DNA of 24,331 nt, taken from positions 1 through 24,331 of the IMG/VR virus record IMGVR_UViG_3300045738_000647. One strand, given 5' to 3'. The notes under the pieces are model-generated. The model searched no databases. It was given only the letters and a program-made list of their open reading frames with translations, and was not told the DNA's origin. Positions 2,408 to 12,109 of the stretch are shown here, piece by piece. The stretch is from a virus. The translations under genes and the position numbers were made by a program. How positions within the stretch are numbered: position 1 is the first letter of the stretch; each line of letters begins with the position of its first letter.

Positions 2408-2658
2408 GTCGCGATGGCTGTCTGAAGTGCAACGGCTTCGGCGAGGTCGGATGCGACCGGTGCGCCCACCGATCCGCATCGCGGTCGTGGTTCCTCGAGT
2501 CGTGCTCAGCGTGCGACGGCGAGGAGCTTGTCGCTTGCCCCGACTGCAACGGCACTGGTATGATCGTCCGCGACCTTTCTGGCGTGAGCCCTTCGCCGAT
2601 CGCAGCGCCTGAGCCGGGAGAAGAAGGCAGCATCCCAACAGTCGGAGTTATCGAATGA
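2371..2658 (+). CDS. Small DnaJ-type zinc-finger protein
   Basis: This 95-residue protein has four CxxC pairs at residues 17-20, 28-31, 45-48 and 56-59. The first and last read CxxCNGxG, as in the cysteine-rich domain of DnaJ/Hsp40, where four such repeats bind two zinc ions. There is no J domain. After the fingers comes a Pro/Glu-rich tail. The GTG at 2371 is chosen because it follows AAGGAAACGAAC (a usable SD) and removes an arginine-rich extension that only shadows terL. The gene overlaps terL by 37 nt, and its TGA overlaps the portal ATG (ATGA), so it should be co-translated with packaging genes. Possible roles are chaperone for terminase or portal, or nucleic-acid binding; neither is shown. 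Confidence 0.75.
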   Translation: MGRSSAGDARRVSRDGCLKCNGFGEVGCDRCAHRSASRSWFLESCSACDGEELVACPDCNGTGMIVRDLSGVSPSPIAAPEPGEEGSIPTVGVIE

Positions 2659-4349
2659 CGTTACCGATTCTGCAAGGAACGTATCCAGCCGGCGACATCT
2701 ACTCGCACGCGCTCGCGTCCGCCTATCATCACGAATGGCGCATTCTTGATCCCGACTTCTCGCAAGAAAAGGAGCCGTCGGTTTGGGAGCTGATCCAACG
2801 CGACCCCGTCGTGCAGCAGGCCATCCTGCAACGGCTCGCGGTCGTCGCGCCGAAGACGTGGCAAGTCGAGGCCGCGACGAAGTCTGACGACGACAAGCGC
2901 CTCGCACGCATCGTGCAGGAAATGCTCGAAGGCATCACCCGATTTGTGCAGGCTCGCAGCGACCTCGCGAAAGCGATATTCCGTGGTCGCGCTTACGCTT
3001 TCATCTCCGGTCGTCGTCGGCCGTTCGCCTTCGCCGACAGCACGACGATGCAACGATGGTGGTTGCCTCACCGATTGCAGCCCGTCGACAAGCGTCGTAT
3101 CCAGTTCGTCCCGAGCCGCAACGCTGCCGGCATTCTCACGACGCGCCCGCAGTTGTTCAGCGTGTCGCGCGAGAAGTGGGAGGACATCCGGCTGAAGGGC
3201 AACTTCGTCAGCGTCACCTATGGAGGCGATGAAGAATCCCGGCTCGGCTACGGCCGTGGAATAATCGAGACGTTGTACTTCCTATGGTGGGCACGCCAGC
3301 GCGTCATGCGCGAAGGCTTGCAAGCGGTCGAGCGTTGGTCGCAGGGTTTCATTCTCGCGAAGATCGACTCAACAGTTCGACCGGGCGGCGCGGGCAAAGA
3401 CCCGAACACCATGCGCGACGAGATGATTTCAATGCTCGAGCAGCACCGCGCACAGCACATCGCCGTCGTCGACAAGGCCGACGACATCTCCGTTGTCACG
3501 GGTCCGACCGGCGAGCACTCGCTCGCGGAGTTCTGGATCAATTACATCGACTCGAAGATTCTCGGCGTGTCGCTCGGCGCGAACCTGCCCTTCGGTGGCA
3601 GCGCCGACGCCGGCTCGCTCGCACGCTCGGTCGAGGAAGGCGAGACGGCCGACGACCGAACAGAGCTCGATCGCAACGTCCTCGACGAGTCGGTGCAAGC
3701 CGATCTTGTCACTTGCTTTCTCAACCGCAACCGACAGCAACTCGAGGCCGAAGGCCTCGGCAACGCTCGCATCCCGCGCTTCGCGACCATCACGCAGAAG
3801 ACCGAGAACCCGAAAGAGAACGCCGAGACGGCCGCGATCGTCCTTCAGTCGGCACCGCTCAAGCGCGAAGAATACTACGCTCGCGTAGGATGGGAGCCGC
3901 CCGAGGACGAAGACGAAGTCATCGAGGCGACGGCGCAGCCAGGTCTGCCCGGTCTGCCCGGTCTGCCCGACTTCGGCGACACTGACCTTCCGCCGATCGA
4001 CTTGGACCTTCCCGACGACACGACGCCCACCGACGAGCCCGCAAACCCCGACGAACCCGATCCGCAGATCGACGACGACGCGGAAGTCGAATCGGAGTTG
4101 CTCGGCAAGGTCGGCGGCATCACCGGCGCGATCGAGATCCTCGGCAAGCTCGGCGAAGGCGTCATCACACGCGAGACAGCAGTTCGACTTTTCGTTTTGT
4201 TCTTCCACCTAACGCCCGAGCAAGCTAGCGATCTCGTTGGCGAGTCGGGTGAAACCTTACCAGAAGAAAGCATCCCGGATGAGCGCAGCATCGCGGGCGA
4301 GCCCCCGGCGAATAACGGAGGTGCTCCACGAGCAGCAGTGGTCGGGTAA
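2655..4349 (+). CDS. Portal protein (DUF935, Mu gp29-like)
   Basis: The 564-residue product would form the dodecameric DNA gate at the capsid vertex. Features of the DUF935 family are the RDPVVQQAILQRLAVV stretch (about residues 49-64), a tryptophan-rich core (LYFLWWARQRVMREG), and a late block ILGVSLGANLPFGGSADAGS followed by a long acidic helix region. The C-terminus has GVITRETAVRLFVLFFHLTPEQAS, like the helical end of SPP1/Mu portal relatives. Between core and end lies an acidic, proline-rich linker. It includes three tandem copies of the 9-bp unit ggtctgccc (3943-3969), giving a PGLPGLPGLP segment. The gene sits in the usual place after terL and is translationally coupled to the zinc-finger gene. 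Confidence 0.88.
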   Translation: MTLPILQGTYPAGDIYSHALASAYHHEWRILDPDFSQEKEPSVWELIQRDPVVQQAILQRLAVVAPKTWQVEAATKSDDDKRLARIVQEMLEGITRFVQARSDLAKAIFRGRAYAFISGRRRPFAFADSTTMQRWWLPHRLQPVDKRRIQFVPSRNAAGILTTRPQLFSVSREKWEDIRLKGNFVSVTYGGDEESRLGYGRGIIETLYFLWWARQRVMREGLQAVERWSQGFILAKIDSTVRPGGAGKDPNTMRDEMISMLEQHRAQHIAVVDKADDISVVTGPTGEHSLAEFWINYIDSKILGVSLGANLPFGGSADAGSLARSVEEGETADDRTELDRNVLDESVQADLVTCFLNRNRQQLEAEGLGNARIPRFATITQKTENPKENAETAAIVLQSAPLKREEYYARVGWEPPEDEDEVIEATAQPGLPGLPGLPDFGDTDLPPIDLDLPDDTTPTDEPANPDEPDPQIDDDAEVESELLGKVGGITGAIEILGKLGEGVITRETAVRLFVLFFHLTPEQASDLVGESGETLPEESIPDERSIAGEPPANNGGAPRAAVVG

Positions 4350-5928
4350 ACCGTGCGTGGTCATCGGTGGCGGGCCGTCGTTGAAAGGCGTCGACCCGTC
4401 CGTCATCCCAGAAGGCGTTCCTTCGATTGGATGTAATGGTGCTTACCTATGGAACCCGACCATCGTGTTCTTTATCGACTGGCGCTTTTACGAGCTAGTG
4501 AAAGATCGCGACGATTGGAAGGCGTGCACGTCGACACGCATCATGCACAAGTCGTGCATCCAATACCCAGCGAGCAACGAAGCCGGAGCGTACTGGATTC
4601 CCATCGGTCGAGGAACTGTACAGTGGGGCATAAACTTCGACGCTGGTCTAGCAGGCCTGTCGAACACCGGCGTGATGGCCGTGAACCTTGCCGACATACT
4701 CGGGTGCGATCCGATCCTCTTGCTCGGCTTCGACCTGCTCGGCATCCCGTGCCCCGAGAAAGGCGAAGCTCGATCGGCGAACTTCCACACGCTTTACCCG
4801 GAGAGCTGGACGACGGGCGACAGCGTGTATACTCGATTCCTCGATTCGTTCGTTCGCTGCTTGCGCTACTCAGGCAAGCGCGTCATTAATTGCAACCCGG
4901 ATTCTGCGCTCGACCTGTTCCCGAAGTGCACGCTCGACGAAGGCATGGCGATCGCTCGAGGCGACGTCGATCCCGCCGAGTTGTTCCCGAACGGAAAGCT
5001 TGTCGGTACAACGTCGGGTCCGATAGCTGTGAGGTGCAAAGCCGATGAAGGCAACGAAGCTGATGGTCGCCTTGCTCCCGATCTTCTTAGTCGCCTGCTC
5101 GAGCCAGGAGAGACGGGAAGCAGTCGACGCCGGATTCCAGGCGGGATGGGACAAAGCCGCCGAGTCGATCTCGGCGGGCGCGTCGCCGACGGACCCGGCG
5201 ACCCTAATCGCTGTCGGGGTTACGGCAGTCAGCGCGGCCGTGCTGGCGTGGGTCAGAGCCCGGAAGAAATACAAGAATGGAGGGCCGGGCGGGACAAACG
5301 GCTAGCAGCCGCGCTGACGAAGGCCGACACTGAACTCGCGAAGTTCGTCGCGAAGCCTTCGAACATCAACGAACATCTGGAAACGCTCCGGGAGCTTGCT
5401 CGAGGTCAGACGGTAGTTGCGGAGTTCGGAAGTGGCACCGACTGCCGATCCACCCTAGCCTTGATAGCAGGTCGCCCGGAGCGCGTTCTTTCGTACGACC
5501 TAACGACGCCGAGCGAGACGCTCCGATTTAATCTCGGACAGTACGGCGCGGACAACGGCACCGTGGTCGAGTTCATCGAGAAGGACACCGGGCGGCTTCC
5601 AACGCTTGACCGCGATGTCGATTTGCTTCTTATCGACTCCGCGCACAACTGCGAACAAGTCACGGCCGAGCTTGTACTCAACGCTCACCGCGTTCTCGAT
5701 TACATCGTCTTCCACGACGTCGTGTCGTTCCCGTTCATCGATCAAGCGTTCGGAGGCAACGTCACGAACACCGAACCGATCTCCGGCGACGATACTGGCG
5801 TGATGCGTGCAGTGCTGTTGTTCCTTCGCGACAATGTCGAGTGGACGGTCGCCGAGTTCTATCAAAACAACAATGGTCTTTTGGTCCTGCAACGCTACGA
5901 CCGACGACCCGAGGTCGAGGTCGCCTGA
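4279..5928 (+). CDS. DUF115-like sugar domain fused to a methyltransferase
   Basis: Numbering from the ATG at 4279. Residues about 24-240 look like the DUF115/MptE-like Rossmann domain found in Maf-type glycosyltransferases: PCVVIGGGPSLKG near 26-38, SIGCNGAYLWNP, FFIDWRFYE, and ILLLGFDLLG. Residues about 345-540 look like a class I SAM-dependent methyltransferase of the Methyltransf_24/CmcI type: VVAEFGSGTD (glycine motif, 382-386), LLLIDSAHNCEQV (DSAH 453-456), and YIVFHDVVSFPF. The linker at about 256-343 is Arg/Gly-rich and shapeless, and a lipoprotein gene is encoded there in another frame. A TTG at 4237 is possible but lies deeper in portal. A GTG at 5248 could give the methyltransferase alone. 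Two genes joined by loss of a stop or by a frameshift is a real alternative to a true fusion. Confidence 0.7.
   Translation: MSAASRASPRRITEVLHEQQWSGKPCVVIGGGPSLKGVDPSVIPEGVPSIGCNGAYLWNPTIVFFIDWRFYELVKDRDDWKACTSTRIMHKSCIQYPASNEAGAYWIPIGRGTVQWGINFDAGLAGLSNTGVMAVNLADILGCDPILLLGFDLLGIPCPEKGEARSANFHTLYPESWTTGDSVYTRFLDSFVRCLRYSGKRVINCNPDSALDLFPKCTLDEGMAIARGDVDPAELFPNGKLVGTTSGPIAVRCKADEGNEADGRLAPDLLSRLLEPGETGSSRRRIPGGMGQSRRVDLGGRVADGPGDPNRCRGYGSQRGRAGVGQSPEEIQEWRAGRDKRLAAALTKADTELAKFVAKPSNINEHLETLRELARGQTVVAEFGSGTDCRSTLALIAGRPERVLSYDLTTPSETLRFNLGQYGADNGTVVEFIEKDTGRLPTLDRDVDLLLIDSAHNCEQVTAELVLNAHRVLDYIVFHDVVSFPFIDQAFGGNVTNTEPISGDDTGVMRAVLLFLRDNVEWTVAEFYQNNNGLLVLQRYDRRPEVEVA
5045..5305 (+). CDS. Overprinted lipoprotein with C-terminal membrane span (86 aa)
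   Basis: The ATG at 5045 follows GAGGT with 9-nt spacing. The product has a basic N-terminus (MKATK), a hydrophobic core and a lipobox LVAC with the cysteine at residue 18, which is standard for signal peptidase II processing. About 34 polar residues follow, then a second hydrophobic segment (about 52-70, LIAVGVTAVSAAVLAWV) and a strongly basic tail (RARKKYKN). An outer-membrane lipid anchor plus an inner-membrane C-terminal span is the topology of unimolecular spanins, but the linker is much shorter than in phage T1 gp11. The gene lies wholly inside the fusion gene in another frame. Its codons look natural while the host frame there looks like noise, so this frame is probably the selected one. 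Confidence 0.7.
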   Translation: MKATKLMVALLPIFLVACSSQERREAVDAGFQAGWDKAAESISAGASPTDPATLIAVGVTAVSAAVLAWVRARKKYKNGGPGGTNG

Positions 5929-5946
5929 TGGCGTGGGGCTATTGAA

Positions 5947-6675
5947 TTGATCAGTCGCGATGTGACTCTAATAACGTGCACCGGTTTTCGACCCGAGGCG
6001 TTCGCGCTCTGCGAGAAGTACGTCCATCGCTTCGACACCGACGGCATCGATGTCGAGTGGATCGTCGTGTCCGACGACAACATGTCGATCGGTGTTGATG
6101 CGTTTCTGGACAAAGGCATCAACGTCGTGTCGGTCGACGGGATCGGCCCGCAGAGATACTGCACGATGCCTTCGAACCTGCACACGGCGCTTTCGCTCGC
6201 ACGCGGGCAACTTGTCATCATCATCGAAGACGACGATTGGTACCACGCGAGCTACGTTCGATTTCTTTGGAACGCGTACAACACTTCGGCCGTCAAGCTG
6301 CTCGGGTTCTCGGCGGCACGTTATTACAGCGTCAGCACGCGGACTTTCAAAGGCCGGTATTCTTCACGATACTCGTCGCTCTGCCGTACGGCGTTCGATC
6401 GATGCCTCGCCGATCGCGTCGGCGAGGTCTGCCGAGCTTGCCATGCAGACCGAGCCATCAACGTCGACACACGAATTTGGTCAACGATCTGCGATCGCGA
6501 TGAGCGCTTCCTGTTCCCGCAATCGCATCTTTGCGTTTCGATCAAAGACATGCCCGGTCGAGGCAGGGCGGGCTTGATGGGCGGAAAGATGACCAATGCA
6601 GATCCGAGATTGTCCGTTCTCCGCCAGTGGATCGGCGACGACTGTCAGAACTACGAAAGGGTCCAGAATGTCTAA
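5947..6675 (+). CDS. GT-A fold glycosyltransferase (GT2-like)
   Basis: The 242-residue product starts with a beta strand (VTLITCTGFRP), has WIVVSDDN near residues 38-45, and an acidic motif EDDDWY at 94-99 after the strand LVIIIEDD. That matches the nucleotide-sugar and metal-binding DxD motif of GT-A enzymes. The family is probably GT2 or close to it, and acceptor and sugar are unknown. The start is the TTG at 5947, with GGGG about 9 nt upstream. The frame has no ATG before the fold begins; a GTG at 5962 is an alternative. The gene begins 18 nt after the methyltransferase stop and overlaps the next glycosyltransferase by 8 nt (ATGTCTAA), so the three form one translational unit. Confidence 0.7.
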   Translation: MISRDVTLITCTGFRPEAFALCEKYVHRFDTDGIDVEWIVVSDDNMSIGVDAFLDKGINVVSVDGIGPQRYCTMPSNLHTALSLARGQLVIIIEDDDWYHASYVRFLWNAYNTSAVKLLGFSAARYYSVSTRTFKGRYSSRYSSLCRTAFDRCLADRVGEVCRACHADRAINVDTRIWSTICDRDERFLFPQSHLCVSIKDMPGRGRAGLMGGKMTNADPRLSVLRQWIGDDCQNYERVQNV

Positions 6676-7429
6676 TCCGTTTATTGTCATCGGCTCGAGC
6701 AACGCCGAGCGTGTTCCTGCAATCGTGCTCAAGCACACCATCCTGCAGCACTGCCCGAGCGCCGATATAATAATGACGCACGACCGACCCGACGCTCCGA
6801 CGCGCGGGCTGGTCGACGAAGGCGGGATGGACCCGACGAACTTTTCGTTCGTCCGCTTCTGGTTGCCCGAGCTTGCCGAGCGCAAAGGTCGGGCGTTGTA
6901 CTTCGACTGCGACATGATCGTATTCGATTCGGTGCAGTCGCTTTTCGACACCGACATGGGCGACAACTGGGTGATGACGACACCGAATCCGTCGGTGTTG
7001 CTCGTCGATTGCGAGCGCACACCGTGGCCGCCTGTTCAGCAGATGATGAAGAATGTCACCGATGGTGGGACGCAAGCGTACGGGATCAACATGGGAACGC
7101 TAGGCGGAATACCGAAGACTCGCGTCGGTCAGCTTCCTGCGTGCTGGAACAGCCTTGATCGATTCGTCGAGGAGGAGACTAAGCTCTTGCACTATACGAA
7201 CATGACGATGCAGCCCTGGGTGAATCACAAGCACACCGACTCGGTGCCCGCGCACAGTCTTGCACATCTGTGGTACGATGCCCTTGCCGACGCAGTTCAC
7301 GCCGGTGAAGTCGGCACGAACGATCTGCATCATTCGATGCTCGGCTTGCTCGAAGAGGCTTTCCGGTTCCAGGTGAAGCAAGATGCCACGCCCGCGACAG
7401 TCGAAACAGCTCGAGGATATATCGAATAA
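6668..7429 (+). CDS. GT8-like glycosyltransferase
   Basis: The 253-residue product has the GT8-type layout: FVRFWLPELAERKGRALYFDCDMIVFD at residues about 61-87, with the DxD motif D80-C-D82, followed by QAYGINMGTLGG (acceptor-side loop) and HYTNMTMQPW at 175-184. GT8 enzymes are retaining transferases that use UDP-sugars; the acceptor here is unknown. The ATG at 6668 follows GAAAGGG with suitable spacing, and an upstream extension to 6596 only shadows the preceding gene. The 3' end overlaps the MuF-like gene by 47 nt, so the glycosylation genes and head genes share one transcript. Confidence 0.7.
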   Translation: MSNPFIVIGSSNAERVPAIVLKHTILQHCPSADIIMTHDRPDAPTRGLVDEGGMDPTNFSFVRFWLPELAERKGRALYFDCDMIVFDSVQSLFDTDMGDNWVMTTPNPSVLLVDCERTPWPPVQQMMKNVTDGGTQAYGINMGTLGGIPKTRVGQLPACWNSLDRFVEEETKLLHYTNMTMQPWVNHKHTDSVPAHSLAHLWYDALADAVHAGEVGTNDLHHSMLGLLEEAFRFQVKQDATPATVETARGYIE

Positions 7430-8354
7430 CAGCGTCGCATCGTTCATCGAGCGAGCCAACGCGATAGTCGCTGCGACGTTTCGTGGTGGGGATGTCGAGG
7501 CGGAAACGCAGAAGCTCGCTCGACTCTTTTCTGAGACGATGACCCTTGCCGACCTCACCGGTCGAGCCACGCTTATCGAACAAGCTATGCGCTCGATGAA
7601 GAAACAAGGCAAGACGCCCGCCGACGCCGAGCACGGTGTGCCGCTCCGATTGAAAGACGACACGGCGCTCGGCTTCAGACCCGACGAGGCGGATCACTCG
7701 CCCGTCGTTCCCGGCACCGACTTCGACGATGCTGTCGAGGACATCGTAAGCCGCGTTCCTATTCTGCAGCAAGAGATGAGCGATGGTCGGCCACGCTATT
7801 TACAGATTGCCGACCTGTACGAAAACAAGCACGCGTTTGGCCTTGCCCGTTCTTTCTCGGACAAGCTTACGCAACGCGTGCAGTCCATCATCAAGAAGTC
7901 GATCGCCGACGGGACACCGATAAAGACAGCGCAAGAAGCGATTCAGAAAGCCGGCGATTTTTCGCGTTCGTACGCCGAGCTAACATACCGGACGAACTTG
8001 GTCAGTGCTTACACGGCTGGAACGTTTCAAGAGATGCAAGACCCTGTCGTGCAACTGGTCTTCGGTGCGCTCGAGTTTGTCGCCGTGCTCGACGACGACA
8101 CGCGCGAGAATCACTCCGCCGCGCACGGCTTAGTCGCGGCGATCGACGATCCGATCTGGGACTCGCTGTCTCCGCCGCTAGGGTACAACTGCCGGTGCGC
8201 CGTGTTCCCGGTCGACTTCCTTCGCCTCGAGGAGATGGGACTAGTGAAAGGTGGCGGGTCAGTCAAGATGCGTCGGCCTACGAACTTCGCCGCAGCCTCA
8301 GCCGACGCCGTCGGGCACTTCGGTCGTCGGCCCGACGGGAACATCTACGGTTGA
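7383..8354 (+). CDS. Head morphogenesis protein (Mu F/SPP1 gp7-like)
   Basis: The 323-residue product carries the Mu F-like minor head domain in its second half: YRTNLVSAYTAGTFQEM (202-218), DDDTRENHSAAHG (237-249) and PPLGYNCRC (264-272), with the conserved histidine and two cysteines of the family. The N-terminal half is helical and variable, as expected. Members of the family bind the portal inside the capsid, and some are ejected with the DNA. AGGTG lies 7 nt before the ATG. It normally follows portal directly; here four accessory genes separate them. It is the last + gene before the repeat array and the minus-strand gene. Confidence 0.85.
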   Translation: MPRPRQSKQLEDISNNSVASFIERANAIVAATFRGGDVEAETQKLARLFSETMTLADLTGRATLIEQAMRSMKKQGKTPADAEHGVPLRLKDDTALGFRPDEADHSPVVPGTDFDDAVEDIVSRVPILQQEMSDGRPRYLQIADLYENKHAFGLARSFSDKLTQRVQSIIKKSIADGTPIKTAQEAIQKAGDFSRSYAELTYRTNLVSAYTAGTFQEMQDPVVQLVFGALEFVAVLDDDTRENHSAAHGLVAAIDDPIWDSLSPPLGYNCRCAVFPVDFLRLEEMGLVKGGGSVKMRRPTNFAAASADAVGHFGRRPDGNIYG

Positions 8355-8360
8355 AAACCG

Positions 8361-8500
8361 CTCGGGCTCGACCGCTCGGGCTCGACCGCTCCGGCTCGAC
8401 CGCTCCGGCTCGACCGCTCGGGCTCGACCGCTCGGGCTCGACCGCTCGGGCTCGACCGCTCGGGCTCGACCGCTCCGGCTCGACCGCTCCGGCTCGACTG
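8361..8500. repeat. Ten tandem 14-bp direct repeats
   Basis: Ten head-to-tail copies of CTCSGGCTCGACCG (S = G or C) fill 8361-8500 with no spacers; the last copy ends ACTG. Only the fourth base varies, reading G G C C G G G G C C in order, so variants come in adjacent pairs and a GGCC block of four occurs twice (8361 and 8445). The array fills the gap between the converging stops of the MuF-like gene (8354) and the minus-strand gene (8504). There is no GAG on the + strand of the array, so it does not fold into strong hairpins. Possible roles are protein-binding iterons, an origin or partition-like site, or a barrier between converging transcripts. Confidence 0.95.
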
Positions 8501-8503
8501 CCC

Positions 8504-9073
8504 CTATCGAACTGGCGTCGCTGATGCCCGACGAGAGTCATCGGCAGGCACGACTGCCGAGGAAGCTCGCGGCAACCGCAACGGTTCAACGTCAATCGCT
8601 TCTTCGAAAGCGCAATACAACTGCGACAGATCGAAGACGTCGATAGATTCGCCTTCGGGCACGTCAAGCTCAACGCCTTCACCACACACGACGCACCCGT
8701 CTTTAACCGTTCCAGCCGTCCGAAGACAGAAGAAGACGTGGTTTTCGCCGAACGTGTTCGCTAATTTCACCGTCATCTGTCGCACTAGTTCGTGTGCTCC
8801 TTTGATCGGCATCGAGTGTTGCGCGTGACAATGGGCGAGCACGCAGAAGGCCGCGAGTTCTTCAGACGAAAAGCCCATCCCGGCGTTCCGTTCGCCGTGC
8901 TTCAATTCGTGTAAGAGCCGTTCGTGGCGGTACTTGACGAGCAGATCCTTCGGGATGCCGAGCTGTTCGGCGAGCACCGAAGTGTCGAGCGCCAGGCGCT
9001 TCACGCGTCCGGGCTCGAGGTCTGCATCGGTGATCAGATTCACGCCGTCGGGCAGGTCTGCTTTTCGTATCAT
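8504..9073 (-). CDS. Minus-strand protein with HExxH motif, possible metallopeptidase
   Basis: This 189-residue protein is the only minus-strand gene. Around residues 50-82 it reads RHERLLHELKHGERN then SSEELAAFCVLAH. HELKH (55-59) fits the zincin HExxH motif, and the EELAAF helix starting at about residue 71 resembles the third-ligand helix of ImmA/IrrE (DUF955) peptidases (EEEANxFAAxLL). A CVVC pair lies at 127-130. ImmA-type proteases cleave phage or element repressors, but no repressor gene is next to it, so function is inferred from a short motif only. The start at 9073 has no SD; TACGAT ends 7 nt upstream. The stop lies 4 nt from the repeat array. Chance occurrence of HExxH is possible. 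Confidence 0.6.
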   Translation of the reverse strand: MIRKADLPDGVNLITDADLEPGRVKRLALDTSVLAEQLGIPKDLLVKYRHERLLHELKHGERNAGMGFSSEELAAFCVLAHCHAQHSMPIKGAHELVRQMTVKLANTFGENHVFFCLRTAGTVKDGCVVCGEGVELDVPEGESIDVFDLSQLYCAFEEAIDVEPLRLPRASSAVVPADDSRRASATPVR

Positions 9074-10552: not shown

Positions 10553-11077
10553 ATGGTTCTTAGTGTAGGCTCCCGACCTGTTCGGGAACGACCGGGGCAC
10601 ACCGCAGAGTTCGTCGTCGTGCCCGCTGCCGTCATCGTCGATGGTGCTCTTGTCGGAACGATCACTGGTCTGACGACCGGTGCGCTCGGCGGCGTGAACA
10701 ACATGGATCCGACAAGCGCGGCTTTCCAGTTCCTCGGGATCGCTCGCGTGCGACCGACCTCGCAAGACTCTGCCGCGAAAAGCGTAACAGGCAGCGCCGC
10801 GATCACGACCATCGCTTCGGTCGGTGTGATGAACACCGTCGAGGTCGACATGTCCGGCGTTCTTCTCGAAGGCATCACCGTCGCGGTGATGGGTTCGTAC
10901 GTCGAGACCGGCGACTTAGTCTACGCTGGTGGTTCGACCGGAGATCCGAATCAGTCTACAACCGCCGCGTCGAACGCCGACGCGATCGGTTTCATCACGT
11001 ACGTTTACCCGGACGGCAACACGGCCGACGTGAAGCTGTTTTCCGCTGGCGAGATCCGAGGTCAGCCCGCCGCTTAA
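10553..11077 (+). CDS. Head decoration/stabilisation protein
   Basis: The 174-residue product is rich in Gly, Ala, Val, Ser and Thr, with predicted beta strands and few charged residues (for example GHTAEFVVVPAAVIVDG and VMGSYVETGDLVYAGG). That matches small capsid-surface proteins. It sits between the scaffold and major capsid genes, where lambda-D-like or DUF2190-like decoration proteins are coded. AGGAG lies 9 nt before the ATG. The family is inferred from position and composition, not from a specific motif. Confidence 0.6.
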   Translation: MVLSVGSRPVRERPGHTAEFVVVPAAVIVDGALVGTITGLTTGALGGVNNMDPTSAAFQFLGIARVRPTSQDSAAKSVTGSAAITTIASVGVMNTVEVDMSGVLLEGITVAVMGSYVETGDLVYAGGSTGDPNQSTTAASNADAIGFITYVYPDGNTADVKLFSAGEIRGQPAA

Positions 11078-11140
11078 GAACGCGACGAGCAACTTCCTTT
11101 CGTCCGTCATCGTTTCGAACAGCATCAAGGAGATACGAAC

Positions 11141-12109
11141 ATGCCCGCGCCGGTGTCTGCAGGAGCAAGCTTCCGAGCTGGTCTCCGCTCCGAACTTCTC
11201 GGAACCTACAAGCGGATGTACGAGTCGCTTCTGCCGCGCCTCGCCATCGCGATGGGTCTCGACTTCCCGTCCGACAAGCGTTCCGAGTATTATTTCTACT
11301 GGGAGTCTGCGCCGCACATGGCTCGCTGGGCCTACGGCAACGACATGTCCGAGGAGGCGTTCCGCGGAATCCAGTTCGAGGTTACGAATCACCGTTGGGC
11401 AAAAGCCATCTCATGGCAGTCCGACGACCGTGCCGACGATCAAACGTCATCGCTAATGGATCACGCGCGTGGTCTTGGCGAGTCGGCCGCGCTGCTCGAT
11501 GAGCGCGTGCTCTGGCAGATTATCGAAGGCTCGACTGATCGCGAGTTGCTTCCGTCGATCCCGAACGCGCCCGACGGCATTTCGCTTCACTCAGGAATCA
11601 GCACGACACGCTTCGGTGCTGGCGCTGATGGGAACACCGTAGACGTCACGGCGGTGACGACGGATCAGACCGCACGCGATGCATTCTGGGAGATGCTCGG
11701 TCGCGCTCGGTTGTTCCAGGACATCCAAGGACAGCCGCTGCTTGATCCGTCCGTGCTCGATGGTCCGAAGATGATCGCGTATCATCCCGACGACGAGCCA
11801 CACTTCGCAGGCGCGTTCCTTCGAGAACTTGTCGACACCGGCAGCGCAGGCGTGTCGAACGAGATCAAGGCTGCGGGCCATCAAGTCACGTTGTGGACGA
11901 CGAGCCGGTGTGCGAACACGCATTACATCATGTTCATTGACGCACTGATCAAGGCCGTCTTCTCGCAGCTTCGCGAAGGCATGCAAGAGGTCGTCGCGAC
12001 CGCACAGAACTCGGATGTCGCACGGCAGCAGGACGAGGAGTCGATTCGCTTCAAGGTCCGCAAAGGCTACGGCGTCGCACTTCCGTATGCGTCCGTCGAG
12101 GGCGTCTAG
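11141..12109 (+). CDS. Major capsid protein (Mu T-like)
   Basis: The 322-residue product resembles the Mu major head subunit (T, about 305 residues). It has the opening SAGASFRAGLRSELLGTYKR, the aromatic stretch YYFYWESAPHMARWAYG near residues 47-63, a following FEVTNHRWAKAISW, and a C-terminal segment FKVRKGYGVALPY. Its place after scaffold and decoration genes fits. A strong SD (AAGGAG, 8 nt before the ATG) fits the high expression needed. It is the last gene before a strong intrinsic terminator. Confidence 0.82.
   Translation: MPAPVSAGASFRAGLRSELLGTYKRMYESLLPRLAIAMGLDFPSDKRSEYYFYWESAPHMARWAYGNDMSEEAFRGIQFEVTNHRWAKAISWQSDDRADDQTSSLMDHARGLGESAALLDERVLWQIIEGSTDRELLPSIPNAPDGISLHSGISTTRFGAGADGNTVDVTAVTTDQTARDAFWEMLGRARLFQDIQGQPLLDPSVLDGPKMIAYHPDDEPHFAGAFLRELVDTGSAGVSNEIKAAGHQVTLWTTSRCANTHYIMFIDALIKAVFSQLREGMQEVVATAQNSDVARQQDEESIRFKVRKGYGVALPYASVEGV

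Follow-up and report, generated by a model that had tools for sequence, protein, structure and literature searches.

Results

The portal-to-Mu-F interval

The stretch of DNA analyzed here (the window) is an IMG/VR virus record of 24,331 bases with a Mu-type head module, which includes a terminase (839-2407), a portal gene of the Mu type (2655-4349, plus strand; PF06074, E=5.6e-32) and a capsid protein (11141-12109). Downstream of the portal gene, on the same strand, lie A, a gene or domain for an MptE-like/phrog_4603 sugar enzyme (4279-5044, frame 1), a lipoprotein gene (5045-5305, frame 2), and C, a class I SAM methyltransferase of the DINEHLPTL type (5314-5928, frame 1). These are followed by glycosyltransferase-like genes (5947-7429, plus strand), i.e. 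a GT2-like gene with an apparent TTG start (5947-6675) and a GT8-like gene (6596-7429), and the interval is closed by a Mu gpF-like head morphogenesis gene (Mu-F; 7383-8354, plus strand; PF04233, E=9.6e-22). With A, C and the GT2- and GT8-like genes, the interval from portal to Mu-F is a sugar-modification island of a phage with a Mu-like head, and its enzymes would be expected to modify a glycan.

A begins inside the portal gene, and the two genes share 71 bases (4279-4349) that are read in different frames. The portal-to-Mu-F interval (2655-8354) is a variable island among related contigs: L206 has no sugar island between the two genes, and in L005, L006 and L035 this place is taken by other sugar enzymes. 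Small, free-standing lipoprotein-like genes with a Shine-Dalgarno (SD) sequence were seen in L035 (5823-6368, within the island) and in L215 (at 4933, just upstream of Mu-F). The L035 gene showed no sequence match to the lipoprotein of the window, and both genes are analogues by position only. Outside the island, the only clear minus-strand gene of the window (8504-9073) is an ORF of 189 aa whose codon usage is coding-like and which weakly matches a MerR helix-turn-helix (E=0.0039).

Single-sequence scans with the complete A-C frame of 549 residues, the portal and C found no close relatives. Alignment-based scans identified five relatives of the portal, in addition to one metagenome-assembled portal relative, and 22 relatives of Mu-F. 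The best identities in these scans were 35-39%, with one partial Mu-F match at 43%, and across the whole genes searched no relative was above about 40% identity.

A single open frame joins a sugar enzyme and a methyltransferase

An earlier note on this DNA had described a long frame of 549 residues, and this frame is indeed open on the plus strand from the ATG at 4279 to the stop codon at 5926-5928. AlphaFold modeling of the frame with 24 relatives gave two confident domains, and pLDDT was about 30 at residues 239-323, which mostly overlap the lipoprotein gene. The A-C linker as a whole (5045-5313, frame 1, about residues 256-345) is Arg/Gly-rich and predicted to be disordered.

A matches phrog_4603 ("alpha-2,3-sialyltransferase") with E=7e-13 over residues 29-224 and shares with the phrog_4603/MptE-like proteins the residues GGGPS, NTG/NSG, GFD/GYD and an S-L near the end, which place it in this group; its match to PF01973 has E=1.4e-6 but, at 28.6 bits, falls below the curated cut-off of 34.6. 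An alignment scan of viral contigs with A yielded 343 distant relatives, from which the best 80 were kept, and the nearest homologues are about 35% identical. Most of these best 80 of 343 are stand-alone proteins whose last residue corresponds to a position from 214 to about 254 in the frame of the window.

C carries the (D/N)INEHL.TL motif, a methyltransferase core and the NNNG...VL end, and resembles methyltransferase folds of the PDB; it matches L115 with a phmmer E value of 5.6e-28. By these sequence features we assign C to a large phage methyltransferase type that is recognized by DINEHLPTL.

Domains of both types were found joined to other enzymes. Of the best 80 of the 343 A relatives, 29 extend at the C-terminus by about 95 aa or more; the A domain is fused to a nucleotide-sugar transferase type in L006 and L024 and to GT2 in L010, and C-type domains stand behind GT2 domains in L093, L146, L170 and L201. 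A viral structure library includes a 685-residue "MptE-like" phage protein (A0A6J7XC21) with an alignment along most of the model. Since fusion to other sugar enzymes or methyltransferases is frequent for domains of both types, an A-C fusion is an ordinary architecture; what is unusual about the locus is the nested gene. The opinion of the earlier note that a true fusion and a lost boundary would both be unusual is thus too strong for the fusion. Two long phage ORFs were also observed, one encoding an MptE-like domain and then a methyltransferase (L057, 4642-6240) and one encoding A, GT2, Methyltransf_24 and GT2 domains (L047, 3122-6859); both are natural examples of an A domain joined to a methyltransferase.

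The linker region contains an out-of-frame lipoprotein gene

All of the elements that had been reported at 5045-5305, namely a complete 86-codon gene with an SD sequence, a lipobox and a second span, are present in the sequence. The gene is a complete frame 2 ORF on the plus strand, running from the ATG at 5045 to the TAG at 5303-5305, and its SD sequence, GAGGTG (5031-5036), lies 8 bases ahead of the ATG. The N-terminus of the product, MKATKLMVALLPIFLVAC, consists of a basic n-region, a hydrophobic h-region and the lipobox LVAC with Cys18, as in bacterial lipoproteins (lipobox [LVI][ASTVI][GAS]C), and LVAC fits the published consensus (PMC6139136). Between Cys18 and the membrane span lie about 33 polar residues; the span, from about residue 52, has a mean Kyte-Doolittle value of 2.13 over 19 residues, and a basic C-terminal tail, RARKKYK, comes after it. 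In Lol sorting, the residue at position +2 bears on the membrane destination of a lipoprotein, and Ser at +2 fits the outer membrane. The protein is probably lipidated and, with its Ser at +2, sorted to the outer membrane, and by its anatomy the C-terminal span should lie in the inner membrane with the tail in the cytoplasm.

The combination of SD sequence, lipobox and second span occurs in one ORF of the window, that at 5045-5305, and in none of 60 random windows built with the trinucleotide statistics of the window itself. Chance as the origin of the ORF was rejected on the basis of this absence and of the codon usage in frame 2. No homologue of the lipoprotein was found in viral_contigs or the phage collection (best E=4).

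Codon usage divides the long frame into three coding units

We compared the three frames with a codon model trained on the other genes of the window, with A, the lipoprotein gene and C all left out. The model switches from frame 1 to frame 2 at 5032 and back to frame 1 at 5304. A separate, open segmentation covered the whole window and was trained with A (until 5025) and C (5314 onward) but without the lipoprotein gene; it placed coding segments at 4315-5022 (A, frame 1), 5039-5254 (frame 2) and 5311-5922 (C, frame 1). The two switches adjoin the SD sequence and the stop codon of the lipoprotein gene, and together with the open segmentation they indicate three coding units. Over 5045-5302, the codon likelihood of frame 2 is 13.7 nats above that of frame 1; this gap is at the low end for off-frame readings of the phage's genes (5th to 25th percentile), so the linker may be under weak constraint. 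Codon statistics over 86 codons are suggestive rather than conclusive. The codon usage of the linker is off-frame-like and shows no sign of adaptation. Together, the frame 2 preference and the low pLDDT bear out the impression of the earlier note that the long frame is shapeless here and the short one protein-like.

The polarity in that note's title, a lipoprotein gene overprinted inside an enzyme gene, is the opposite of what we found, in that the lipoprotein frame is coding-like and the enzyme linker secondary. True overprinting, in which the fusion is ancestral and its linker gave rise de novo to the lipoprotein ORF, would agree with the frequent fusion of these domains and with the existence of embedded phage lipoprotein genes such as lambda Rz1 in Rz (PMC6139136). 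However, the phage's codon usage over 5039-5254 lies in frame 2 and not in frame 1, and an SD sequence, signal peptide, lipobox and span were jointly absent from the 60 random windows. We therefore consider a de novo origin very improbable.

The open state of the linker frame calls for no special cause. When the lipoprotein was recoded synonymously, frame 1 stayed open in 14% of cases, and among 86-codon windows with the same shift in the phage's genes 26% are stop-free; thus, a stop-free frame 1 across the lipoprotein gene is unremarkable, and the sole thing that needs explanation is that A has no stop codon.

Gene A has no stop codon near its coding end

The coding signal of A ends at about 5022-5032, and its frame contains no stop before 5926. 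Near the end of A, TAG (5024-5026) and TGA (5030-5032) occur in frame 2 and TGA (5046-5048) in frame 3, and none occurs in the frame of A. The last of these, which the earlier note had pointed out correctly, overlaps the ATG of the lipoprotein gene (ATGA). A stands alone among the clear genes of the window in that its stop is far from the end of its coding segment, at a distance of 903 bases; elsewhere this distance is at most 144 bases, except for two weak segments at 8367-8582 and 11058-11132.

The stops that follow closely in the two remaining frames would also fit a programmed frameshift near 5020, by which most of A would be made alone and a minority as the fusion, but no recognized slippery sequence was seen at the junction by eye, and we give this mechanism almost no credence. 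The same stops (5024, 5030, 5046) lie where A should end, and they would suit a contig artefact. In that case the three genes would be separate and the fusion only apparent, produced by a false indel close to the 3' terminus of A, with A ending around 5024-5048 and C starting at GTG 5248 or CTG 5314. The three separate coding segments and the mostly stand-alone relatives of A are in line with such an error. Against it, every other clear gene of the window is intact, the junction has no long homopolymer, and an error at the end of A leaves the start of C unexplained (below). Overall, we judge an artefact to be unlikely, although it deserves consideration. As for a general sequencing or indel problem in the contig, it was rejected, since the window contains no other clearly broken gene.

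The usual start codon of the methyltransferase is missing

Start codons were counted at 96 usable places of the C family. Where no long open frame lies upstream, a start codon stands 10-33 residues ahead of the motif in all 86 of 86 places, and where there is such a frame, a start at -10 to -33 is missing in 4 of 10 (Fisher p=6e-5). C in the window has CTG at -16, and the nearest canonical start upstream, GTG 5248, is at -38, slightly outside the family range of 10-33; a further in-frame start, an ATG, lies upstream of GTG 5248. C therefore departs from the family in having no start of its own at the usual position. Since the start is also missing in several fused members, the membership of C in its domain type is unaffected. 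The start Met of the relatives aligns with CTG 5314, nine bases past the lipoprotein stop, so that A, the lipoprotein gene and C would be expected to lie packed end to end.

C lacks the usual start at the family position and so probably depends on the fusion. GTG 5248 is a possible start of C, and the helix predicted by AlphaFold at residues 328-345 (5260-5313) could belong to an N-terminal extension of C; no SD sequence was found ahead of this GTG. This codon bears on a further explanation, i.e., that the stop loss is real but non-functional, adding a useless tail (and incidentally C) to A, with C also produced through weak initiation at GTG 5248. The presence of GTG 5248 in frame and the lack of any sign of adaptation in the linker would be compatible with this explanation, but the lack of an SD sequence for the GTG and the loss of the start at the family position, as in fused relatives, make it quite improbable. 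The missing start also argues against the contig artefact, since all 86 stand-alone relatives possess the ATG, GTG or TTG that C lacks and an error at the end of A would not have removed it. Altogether, the absence of other broken genes and the missing start of C favor a real fusion over a contig error or a passing mutant, at a probability of about 0.6.

Discussion

The explanation that we favor, with the probability just given, is that three older genes are now read through as an A-C fusion, whose linker is a by-product of an intact lipoprotein gene. The ancestral order would have been A, the small lipoprotein gene and C, arranged consecutively. On the sequenced molecule A lacks an in-frame stop of its own and, with the lipoprotein gene stop-free in the frame of A and C in that same frame, a 549-residue A-linker-C protein would result. 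The lipoprotein would still be made, by internal initiation at its own SD sequence and ATG, and its frame would be the older one, the linker being its off-frame shadow and acting as an unstructured tether. The earlier note had offered a true fusion and two genes with a lost boundary as alternatives. The codon segmentation, the gene ends of the A relatives and the gene starts of the C relatives suggest a combination of the two: the ancestral genes were three, the boundary was lost, and a fusion is now encoded.

The three coding segments, the absent stop, the open linker, the family identities and the precedents for fusion come from the computation itself, and from them we infer that the fusion is real and translated, and that it is young. 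A more specific proposal, that a fusion of two glycan enzymes by stop loss, spanning an intact lipoprotein gene, has become fixed and is translated, with the methyltransferase devoid of its own start and made only by read-through, is tentative, and we place its chances somewhat short of even.

Phage sugar enzymes with several domains are common, and the birth of the first in-frame linker between such domains is rarely seen. If our explanation is true, the window offers a snapshot of fusion by read-through across an intact gene, in which the other frame of that gene became an 85-residue linker. A long new linker would have been created at once, and the lipoprotein gene would be locked into the fusion gene, coupling a membrane protein and two enzymes in their evolution. 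If it is not true, the locus still serves as a warning: roughly a quarter of such off-frames in this G+C-rich phage are open over 86 codons. Because off-frames are so often open, gene callers can join neighboring genes and swallow a small lipoprotein gene.

Known phage enzymes with the phrog_4603/PF01973 domain (L006, L024, L057, L047) have the same N-terminal domain as the window protein, often with a second sugar enzyme or a methyltransferase. In L006 the next domain follows the A domain almost directly, whereas in the window a linker spanning the lipoprotein gene lies between the domains; in the same scan, fused loci of the phrog_4603 type contained no lipoprotein-like ORF with an SD sequence and second span. 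Phage methyltransferases of the DINEHLPTL type (PF13578-like) align with C over the whole domain at 30-39% identity, but they start with Met where C has CTG 5314 in the aligned position, and their partner domain is GT2 in L093, L146, L170 and L201, in contrast to the MptE-like partner in the window.

In its sequence plan the lipoprotein appears to be built like a very short u-spanin, having both the lipoprotein signal and the C-terminal transmembrane domain of this class. The unimolecular spanins of the T1 gp11 type combine an N-terminal lipobox with a C-terminal span and no later cysteine, as does the window lipoprotein, and all 58 u-spanins of a published survey lack a cysteine after the lipobox (PMC6139136). 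The shortest two-component spanin pair has 62 combined periplasmic residues (PMC6139136); against this minimum of at least 62, the window lipoprotein has about 33 residues from Cys18 to the span. A weak match to phrog_3198 ("Rz-like spanin", E=0.022) covers the signal peptide alone, and Pfam and PHROGs recognized no lysis gene among the window genes scanned. A spanin role is therefore a guess, and a lipoprotein for super-infection or surface exclusion is an equally open one.

The closest parallel in arrangement is lambda Rz/Rz1, in which a phage lipoprotein gene is embedded out of frame in a longer gene (PMC6139136, PMC5295617). As in the window, the small lipoprotein gene has its own start and lies on the same strand as the longer gene. 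However, both genes of the lambda pair are lysis partners, whereas the outer frame in the window encodes a sugar enzyme and methyltransferase, and, unlike in Rz/Rz1, the overlapped part of the longer protein in the window is a disordered, secondary-looking linker.
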